This document shows, piece by piece, positions 39,073 through 42,413 of a stretch of 64,000 bases of DNA (its first letter is position 1; the number at the start of each line of letters is the position of its first letter). The stretch comes from Frigidibacter sp. GTDB lineage: Bacteria; Pseudomonadota; Alphaproteobacteria; Rhodobacterales; Rhodobacteraceae. The position numbers and the translations under genes are program-made. The stretch is taken from positions 496,001 to 560,000 of the forward strand of contig NZ_JAUYTT010000008.1 of NCBI RefSeq assembly GCF_030695035.1, given 5' to 3'. The notes beneath the pieces are model-generated. The model saw only the letters and a program-made list of their open reading frames with translations, was not told the origin of the DNA and did not search any database.

Positions 39073-40323
<1,251 letters not shown>

Positions 40324-40351
40324 GATCAGAGCAGGTTATGGCATGACAGGG

Positions 40352-40384
40352 CCCCCGGAGCGTTTGGCGCTCCGGGGGTTTTTT
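40352..40384 (+). terminator. Strong terminator after takP
   Basis: An 11-bp perfect stem CCCCCGGAGCG (40352-40362) / CGCTCCGGGGG (40368-40378), 5-nt loop, then TTTTTT. It begins 28 bases after the takP stop. Confidence 0.92.
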
Positions 40385-40412
40385 GTTTGGGGGTAGTTGC
40401 TGTCATAGGGTA

Positions 40413-40504
40413 GCGCCTGTCCGCCGGGTGGGCGCTGCAACGCCCATTCTAGGCACTCTATGGTGCGGCCCAACAAGCGCCTACCCGAGGGGGCGGACGG
40501 GCGC
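40413..40504. repeat. 92-bp interrupted palindrome between the TRAP genes
   Basis: Two nested inverted repeats. GCGCCTGTCCGCC (40413-40425) matches 40492-40504 inverted at 12 of 13 positions. CCGGGTGGGCGCT (40424-40436) matches AGCGCCTACCCG (40476-40488) with one change. The arms are about 24-29 nt with a 39-nt centre and a 5-nt bulge. There is no reading frame or transposase. Confidence 0.7.
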
Positions 40505-40625
40505 TGCCCGGCGGCACTAAAGCGCCTTGTTCCGGGCAAGAGGGTAAAACGTGTCTGGCGGCCTCCCGAACGAAGGCCGGCGGCCCTTTCGGGCCGCCGG
40601 TCTGGTCGCAGGGGCCGAAGGCCTC

Positions 40626-42413
40626 TCAGTTCGCCGGTGCAGGTGCCTGCAGCCCGGGCGGGAGCCCGAGGCCCGGTACGGCCGGCGCAGGAGCGGGAGC
40701 TGCCCCCGGGGCCGGGGCAGCGCCGGGCGCTCCCAGACCTCCGCCCAAGCCGCCGCCGAGGCCTCCGCCCAAGCCGCCCCCAAGCCCGCCAGCACCGAGG
40801 CCGGGCATCTGCGGCAAGGTGATGGTCACGTTCGAAGTGTCGATGACCGGCCCCTTGTAATGCATCACCATCTGCGGGAACGAGATCACCACCGCGATCA
40901 TCACGATCTGGATGAACACGAAGGGCACGGCCCCCCAGTAGATCTGCGCCGTGGTCACGGGCTGCATCGTGATCCCGGTGACCTTGTCGACATAGGGTGA
41001 TTTCGGCGCGACCGATCGCAGGAAGAACAGCGCAAAGCCGAAGGGCGGGTGCATGAACGAGGTCTGCATATTCACCCCGAGGATCACCCCGAACCAGATC
41101 AGGTCGATGCCAAGGCTCTCGGCCGCGGGGGCCAGCAGCGGCACGATGATGAAGGCCAGCTCGAAGAAGTCGAGGAAGAAGGCCAGGAAGAACACCAGCA
41201 CCGACACCGCGATCAGGAACCCGGTCTCGCCGCCCGGCAGCGAGGTCAGCAGATGCTCGACCCAGATATGCCCGTTGACCCCGTAGAAGGTCAGCGAGAA
41301 TACCCGCGCGCCGATCAGAATGAACATGACGAAGGCCGAGAGCCGCGTGGTCGAGGCCAGCGCCTGGGTGATGACGGTCAGGCTGAGCCGGCCCTTGACG
41401 GCTGCCAGGAACAGCGCCCCCACCGCGCCCATCGCGCCGCCCTCGGTCGGCGTGGCGATGCCGAGGAAGATGGTGCCAAGCACGAGGAAGATCAGCGCCA
41501 GCGGCGGGATCAGCACGATGATGACCTGCTGCGCCAGCCGCGACATCGCGTTGATCTTCAGGCCCTTGTCGAGCAGGGCGACGATGTAGATGAAGATCAC
41601 CGCCGCCGCCGCGCCCAGAATGTCGGCATTTGCGCCGTGGGTCGGGGCCAGCCAGACATGGGTGCCGTAGCCGATGGCCATGCAGACCGCCAGCGCGACG
41701 GCCAGCGAGGTGACGCCATTGCCGAGGGTCCGCGCCTCGAGCGGCAGCGCCGGCATCGAGGCGGGGCGGAACACCGACATCACGAAGACATAGCCCATGT
41801 AGAGCGCAGTCAGCACCATGCCGGGGATCAGCGCGCCCTTGTACATGTCGCCCACCGACCGGCCGAGCTGGTCGGCCAGAACGATCAGCACAAGGCTGGG
41901 CGGGATGATCTGCGCCAGCGTGCCCGAGGCGGCGATGACGCCCGAGGCGATGCGCCGGTCATAGCCATAGCGCAGCATGATCGGCAGCGAGATCAGCCCC
42001 ATCGCGATCACCGAGGCGGCAACGACGCCGGTGGTGGCGGCCAGCAGCGCGCCGACGATGATCACCGCATAGGCGAGGCCGCCGCGCACCGGGCCGAAGA
42101 GCTGGCCGATGGTATCCAGCAGATCCTCGGCCATGCCCGAGCGTTCCAGCAAGATGCCCATGAAGGTGAAGAACGGGATCGCCAGCAGCGTCTCGTTCGA
42201 CATCACCCCCCACATCCGTTCAGGCATCGCGTTGAGCAAGGGCCAGCTGAGGTTGATCGAGCCGCCCGACATCGGCGCAAGCTCGACCCCGATGAAGAAG
42301 AACAGAAGACCATTGGCGGCCAGCGCGAAGGCGACCGGATAGCCGACCAGCAAAAAGCCGATCAGCGACAGGAACATGATCGGCGCCATGTTCTGCGCGA
42401 TGAACTCCATCAT
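40626..42413 (-). CDS. TRAP transporter large permease (DctM/TakM-like)
   Basis: A 595-residue inner-membrane protein with at least a dozen hydrophobic segments, the ion-coupled translocation subunit of a TRAP importer. Conserved DctM blocks include FMGILLERSGMAEDLL, GGLAYAVIIVGALLAATTG, SGTLAQIIPPSLVLIVLAD and PTEGGAMGAVGALF. After the last membrane segment and QMPGL, the C terminus is a low-complexity tail of about 55 residues with four (LGGG) units and then Ala/Pro repeats, longer than usual for DctM. Start overlaps the DctQ stop (ATGA). Probably works with the TakP-like protein. Confidence 0.93.
   Translation of the reverse strand: MMEFIAQNMAPIMFLSLIGFLLVGYPVAFALAANGLLFFFIGVELAPMSGGSINLSWPLLNAMPERMWGVMSNETLLAIPFFTFMGILLERSGMAEDLLDTIGQLFGPVRGGLAYAVIIVGALLAATTGVVAASVIAMGLISLPIMLRYGYDRRIASGVIAASGTLAQIIPPSLVLIVLADQLGRSVGDMYKGALIPGMVLTALYMGYVFVMSVFRPASMPALPLEARTLGNGVTSLAVALAVCMAIGYGTHVWLAPTHGANADILGAAAAVIFIYIVALLDKGLKINAMSRLAQQVIIVLIPPLALIFLVLGTIFLGIATPTEGGAMGAVGALFLAAVKGRLSLTVITQALASTTRLSAFVMFILIGARVFSLTFYGVNGHIWVEHLLTSLPGGETGFLIAVSVLVFFLAFFLDFFELAFIIVPLLAPAAESLGIDLIWFGVILGVNMQTSFMHPPFGFALFFLRSVAPKSPYVDKVTGITMQPVTTAQIYWGAVPFVFIQIVMIAVVISFPQMVMHYKGPVIDTSNVTITLPQMPGLGAGGLGGGLGGGLGGGLGGGLGAPGAAPAPGAAPAPAPAVPGLGLPPGLQAPAPAN

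Follow-up and report, generated by a model that had tools for sequence, protein, structure and literature searches.

The palindrome between the convergent genes takP and dctM in the analysed window (the whole 64,000-nt stretch of a Frigidibacter sp. contig) is a degenerate copy of an intergenic repeat, dispersed and about 165 bp long, which we call family A. We think it probable that the repeat is a non-autonomous, REPIN-like palindrome of the Rhodobacterales and that the window holds a decayed copy of it. The evidence consists of copies elsewhere, intergenic placement mostly at gene 3' ends, a structure held across genera, presence and absence at corresponding sites, truncation, and the presence or absence, at one and the same site, of a module in one of its hairpins (R).

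Results

Element in the takP/dctM gap

In the gap, the takP terminator is followed by the palindrome and then by a short hairpin behind dctM. The features are given below with their window positions and strands.

39211..40323, + strand: takP, DctP-type TRAP binding protein (Pfam DctP, 229.7 bits).
40348..40382, + strand: takP intrinsic terminator, independent of the element (terminator calling).
40404..40540, + strand: whole family A repeat copy, 137 bp, with about 30 nt of the usual centre missing.
40408..40425, + strand: left outer arm GGGTAGCGCCTGTCCGCC, pairing with 40492-40509 (18 nt, 89% complementary).
40425..40436, + strand: left inner arm, pairing with 40476-40487 (12 nt, 92% complementary).
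40437..40475, + strand: centre, 39 nt between the inner arms, with the form of the family motif TTCTAGGCACTCTATGGTGC.
40476..40487, + strand: right inner arm, pairing with 40425-40436.
40492..40509, + strand: right outer arm GGCGGACGGGCGCTGCCC, the family's more conserved arm.
40506..40537, + strand: tail hairpin T (GCCCGG...CCGGGC), with counterparts in other genera.
40574..40603, no strand: short hairpin just behind dctM, outside the element (inverted-repeat detection).
40626..42413, - strand: dctM, TRAP large permease, convergent neighbour (Pfam DctM, 341.3 bits).

A sequence-only reading had noted a 92-bp interrupted palindrome here, with nested inverted arms of about 24-29 nt around a 39-nt centre. 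The nested arms, of 18 and 12 nt, and the centre were confirmed. The 92 bp do correspond to the palindrome; the full unit is slightly longer and includes the third hairpin, T.

The nhmmer profile was built from nine full copies of the window's own genome, the window copy among them. It matched 40404-40540 over model positions 1-167 of 167 (109.5 bits, E 6e-33), with no second match in the window at E <= 10. In the alignment with 53 other copies, the second half of the family centre is absent from the window copy. Compared to the consensus, three changes fall within its first 15 bases, and its GTAG is the product of a C to T change that is absent from the 54-copy consensus.

The proposed folding into a long hairpin was checked against 200 dinucleotide shuffles, none of which was as good on either strand. 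The RNA fold of 40400-40520 has an energy of -77.6 kcal/mol on the + strand (z -6.35) and -66.7 kcal/mol on the - strand (z -3.99). None of 397 random 137-nt stretches of the GC-rich window folded as well as the element (mean -55.7 and best -80.1 vs -80.6), a margin that is thinner than the one against shuffles.

No intrinsic terminator (GC stem and T-run) was called within the element; the scan of 39700-41200 called three sites, namely the takP terminator and two sites inside genes. The palindrome is indeed additional to the takP terminator, as had been claimed. The genus set consisted of five genomes: G000 (own), G001 (F. albus SP32), G002, G003 and G004. By eye, a terminator-like hairpin is seen behind takP in all four other members, G001-G004, and hairpins like that at 40574-40603 are seen at the same spot in G002, G004 and G079. 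The element does not seem to be required for takP termination. The DctM tail itself is Gly/Ala/Pro-rich and of low complexity (window 40626-40850, - strand), and similar GC-rich repeats lie there in several relatives.

Relatives of takP were compared at 14 loci, including that of the window. In nine others dctM lies convergently behind takP, and when searched with the Frigidibacter profile, which diverged forms could escape, none of these nine gaps has the element (E <= 0.1). The takP/dctM gap of G003 (C1, about 2039616-2040700; loci L122 and L190) has about 1 kb of other DNA and is without the element. In F. albus, dctM falls outside the fetched stretch around takP. The element most likely arrived at takP/dctM in the window's own lineage.

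Copies in the genome, the genus and beyond

The search for related copies that the sequence-only reading had suggested gave at least 40 matches in the own genome at E <= 1, which were grouped by hand into at least 20 places with short remnants counted. The nine-copy profile recovers 19 of 20 places at E <= 1e-3, and the 20th is a 30-nt left end. Six weak matches of 16-28 nt (C26:243786, C1:37702, C13:47039, C6:319733, C4:411372 and C4:255914) were judged to be chance. An independent local palindrome peculiar to the takP/dctM gap, either fortuitous or a large terminator, would suit the lack of the element in the same gap of relatives. However, it is refuted by the full-length matches to copies elsewhere in the genome, and we give it practically no chance. 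That copies do exist goes against one of the two outcomes that had been named as counting against a mobile or REP-like origin; the other, a lack of conservation at this site in relatives, is what we found. A REP-like relic, as had been proposed, fits the observations: there are other genomic copies, and the window copy is degenerate and missing from the corresponding gap in relatives.

Among the fetched loci there are 59 distinct full-length copies (31 from F. albus, 11 from G003, 10 from the own genome and seven others), so that 52 of the 59 come from Frigidibacter. Family A is present in three of the five genus genomes (G000, G001 and G003); G002 and G004 gave no match among the best 13 candidates scored per genome. 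With the same number of candidates scored, weaker matches, mostly R with or without T, were obtained in at least 13 of 32 same-family genomes of other genera, and none in 24 genomes outside the family. An exact 25-mer of the left end occurs in 35 stretches of named genomes, namely 27 of F. albus, seven of other Rhodobacterales and one by chance. The last is in an Angelakisella MAG, where the left arm alone matches (13.1 bits). One F. albus stretch (L090) is a left-end remnant.

Plasmid records matched in 144 of 72,556 cases (Pseudosulfitobacter 129, Leisingera 13, Paroceanicella 1 and Ruegeria 1), and among the 30 of these matches listed, all from Pseudosulfitobacter, the matching part is R-T. 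In one such plasmid (CP070882.2:23160-23237; L279:3001-3078) the R-T part, which carries no annotation, is flanked by a GntR regulator gene and a convergent RelE/ParE toxin gene. None of 50,697 phage records matched. Rfam 15 gave no match at the element (window 40000-41000, E <= 1) or at the copies in L143, L226 and L249 (E <= 0.5). One F. albus copy has a tRNA gene (L143:4193-4264) at a distance of about 1 kb, and no link is implied.

Conserved structure

The unit of about 165 bp has the order hairpin L, variable centre, hairpin R, which is approximately the reverse complement of L, and tail hairpin T. The unit can therefore adopt either a single long hairpin or separate ones. In the consensus of 54 copies the left part reads CAGAGGGCAGCGCCCGTCCGCC-GGGTGGGCG, the centre is about 70 nt long and variable with two TTCTAGGCG motifs, and the right part reads AGCGCCCGCCC-gag-GGGGCGGACGGGCGCT-GCCC, followed by T and then by CAAG. 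Purines usually come after the terminal CAAG. Other genera have a short form with almost no centre. At L108:1603-2375 (Pseudorhodobacter PARRP1) three copies stand in tandem, flanks included, and a small palindrome of another kind, AGCGATTGCAAGCAATCGCT, interrupts the R module of the middle copy. In more than one genus, other palindromes have thus entered the apex of R.

Over the 54 copies there are 10 changes in the right arms vs 43 in the left arms. Between genera, 6 of 18 arm pairs are changed on both sides. Pairing is held in 245 of 270 cells vs 215 +- 5 for shuffled partners (0 of 2000 shuffles reach it), in 15 rows chosen for clear arms, a choice that leans towards pairing, and with a partner shuffling that does not preserve the relatedness of the rows. 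These rows are the Frigidibacter consensus and 14 of 34 loci; the 20 left out comprise six without a row, three of Frigidibacter type and 11 that were unclear, decayed or misplaced by the script. With one row per genome (11 rows) 180 of 198 cells pair vs 158.8 +- 4.2, and with the decayed L049 added 259 of 288 pair vs 228.0 +- 4.9; 0 of 2000 shuffles did as well in either case. Within Frigidibacter the arms hardly vary and a double change is seen in 0 of 34 pairs, so the structure there is invariant rather than covarying.

Departures from arm pairing in the 54 copies are 32 G-T vs 6 A-C cells of 972, together with 15 other mismatches. In other words, G-T pairs are kept 32 times on the + strand of the element vs 6 times for the other strand, or 11 vs 5 by columns. 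This excess hints, weakly when taken by columns, that the fold of one strand matters. A strand-specific RNA role was considered and is not supported, as orientation relative to codirectional genes is the same in 17 cases and opposite in 18; the wobble pairs nonetheless favour one strand.

Site differences between species

For 19 own-genome sites we compared the corresponding regions of other species. The F. albus regions contain the element in 10 of 18 cases, those of G003 in 5 of 17 (two of them remnants) and those of G002 in 0 of 15, and one further site is common to all three carriers. Conversely, when 29 F. albus sites were located in the own genome, 25 are without the element (E <= 0.01), three have remnants and one has a full copy. 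Both flanks are present at 23 of the 25, within 350 nt at 21. This comparison excluded at least seven F. albus copies that were already paired, short or too near the locus end. Sister species have opposite orientations in the same gap at two sites, and species differ in a 70-nt palindromic insert in R at five sites (L158, L160, L165, L166 and L169). Short remnants in the own genome correspond to full sister copies at three sites (L163, L170 and L171), so loss does occur.

Eleven of the 29 F. albus sites (ten empty and one with a different palindrome, family B below) were read by eye for a target-site duplication; none was noticed, and the flanks are diverged. The ten empty sites have 1-85 nt of other sequence between the flanks, with ragged junctions. 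Given both, some of the differences could be due to loss, replacement or recombination. As for the earlier suggestion of a MITE-like element, mobility is borne out by the polymorphic sites, while neither a target-site duplication nor a Y1_Tnp transposase in the five genus genomes was found. A classical MITE, derived by internal deletion from a DDE insertion sequence and having terminal inverted repeats and a target duplication, would account for inverted arms, a length of about 165 bp and polymorphic intergenic sites. We nevertheless regard it as quite improbable: with T located beyond R, the two outer ends do not form inverted repeats, target duplications were not seen at the 11 sites, and an unsystematic look at the fetched loci noticed no parent element.

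Placement among genes

Gene contexts were taken from a custom gene finder, which near the element returned the Pfam-supported genes with three of six starts differing and one tiny extra call, so starts are approximate. Both neighbours are visible for 69 of 72 copies in the three genus genomes, with copies common to two species counted twice. None of the 69 is inside a gene, and two run into the end of a predicted gene, over 21 and 7 nt. The coding share of the window is 91%. There are 35 copies in codirectional, 20 in convergent and 14 in divergent gaps, vs 228, 43 and 51 other gaps of the same loci, which gives an excess of convergent gaps (20/69 vs 43/322, Fisher p 0.003). The distance to gene 3' ends has a median of 30 nt and is below 50 nt in 48 of 75 cases, vs a median of 115 nt and 1 of 63 cases for gene 5' ends. 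The element end facing the near stop shows no preference (24 vs 24).

At several family A sites the corresponding gap is filled by another palindromic repeat, family B, which is about 250-330 bp long (seen, for instance, in L226 around 598-682). Some of its copies have the insert module AAATCCTCCAGTGGAGGATTT, common to the R of family A. The own genome has at least 45 family B matches, hand-grouped into at least about 40 places from the best 40 of 185 candidates scored. Family B is found in the own-genome gap at 5 of the 29 F. albus family A sites, and in sister species at two own-genome family A sites (L154 and L165). Judged by raw counts, different palindromes thus recur in the gaps that follow genes.

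The convergent excess would also fit a function, namely a bidirectional 3' boundary at which the hairpin ends or protects the transcripts of both convergent genes and is retained for that. Copies are often very near stop codons, the symmetry would allow function in either orientation, and the five F. albus gaps filled by family B in the own genome look as though some palindrome were wanted there. Still, we find such a boundary rather unlikely. The gene takP has its own terminator, so that a bidirectional transcription block at takP/dctM is probably redundant, and none of the nine other convergent takP/dctM pairs has the element. In addition, 25 of the 29 F. albus sites lack it in the own genome, only 20 of the 69 copies are convergent, and avoidance of promoters and genes alone would yield the same closeness to 3' ends.

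Discussion

We consider it probable that family A spreads itself and is not a special switch at takP/dctM. Its copies would most likely spread through a putative enzyme that recognises the folded strand, in which R and T are most constrained, and inserts it. Insertions would persist where they are harmless, just behind stop codons and in either orientation. Transcripts in either direction would carry the unit as a long hairpin, which may shield 3' ends; at takP/dctM such shielding is more probably a side effect than what accounts for the element's presence.

Several known systems resemble this repeat. Rhizobium-specific intergenic mosaic elements (RIME) are a mosaic of palindromes between genes in Alphaproteobacteria, and family A is alike as an intergenic palindrome mosaic in the same class, a likeness of description and not of sequence. 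REPINs, in the parts of PMC3116915 drawn on here, have inverted conserved ends and a variable spacer, with 71 or 110 bp between REP starts. They form a single-strand hairpin, are extragenic, leave singlets as remnants and occur in tandem clusters; an enzyme reading the folded strand has been proposed for their spread (PMC3116915). Family A shares with this account the inverted conserved ends, variable spacer, hairpin, extragenic location, remnants and tandems (the three copies of L108). It differs in having an extra hairpin T outside R and an optional module inside R, no GTAG end in its consensus, and no Y1_Tnp/RAYT in the five genus genomes.

The RAYT search (Y1_Tnp, PF01797) found none in the five genus genomes at E <= 1, while 10 of 14 control genomes gave a hit in the same search. 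We therefore do not assign family A to the RAYT-borne class. The GTAG- and CGTC-tagged REPs, as far as the portion of PMC3733652 used here describes them, are likewise short palindromic intergenic repeats, and the CGTC REPs lack a dedicated transposase. Family A ends, in contrast, are CAGAGGGCAGCG and CCGGGCAAG, untagged and with CGTC at neither end; Rhodobacter, Paracoccus and Roseobacter do not occur in the main text of that paper. Br-REP1 of Bradyrhizobium, going by the excerpted account in PMC5082802, is also alphaproteobacterial, with three palindromes in a row and an uneven copy number between species, and was also first found between convergent genes. Its sequence is different, with a CCGGAATCTCGAGATTCCGG core as quoted there. 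The same account gives E. coli REPs a role at transcript ends, and by analogy such a role is possible for family A.

A more general proposal would be a RAYT-free class of modular mobile palindromes, in which a putative enzyme reads folded R and T and places units just after stop codons. The same gaps would then be targeted repeatedly, in either orientation and by both families, A and B, which have a common R-apex module. We regard this as doubtful. Our literature search found no published description of family A or of palindromic intergenic repeats of Rhodobacteraceae; two papers on Paracoccus mobile elements (PMC3281130 and PMC11578231) could bear on the point. The best reading is that family A is a new REPIN-like, non-autonomous mobile palindrome of the Rhodobacterales. 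At the TRAP locus, no special switch need be assumed. With its filled and empty pairs among sister species, and with RAYT not found in the genus genomes, family A offers a tractable case for the spread of REP-like repeats without a dedicated transposase.
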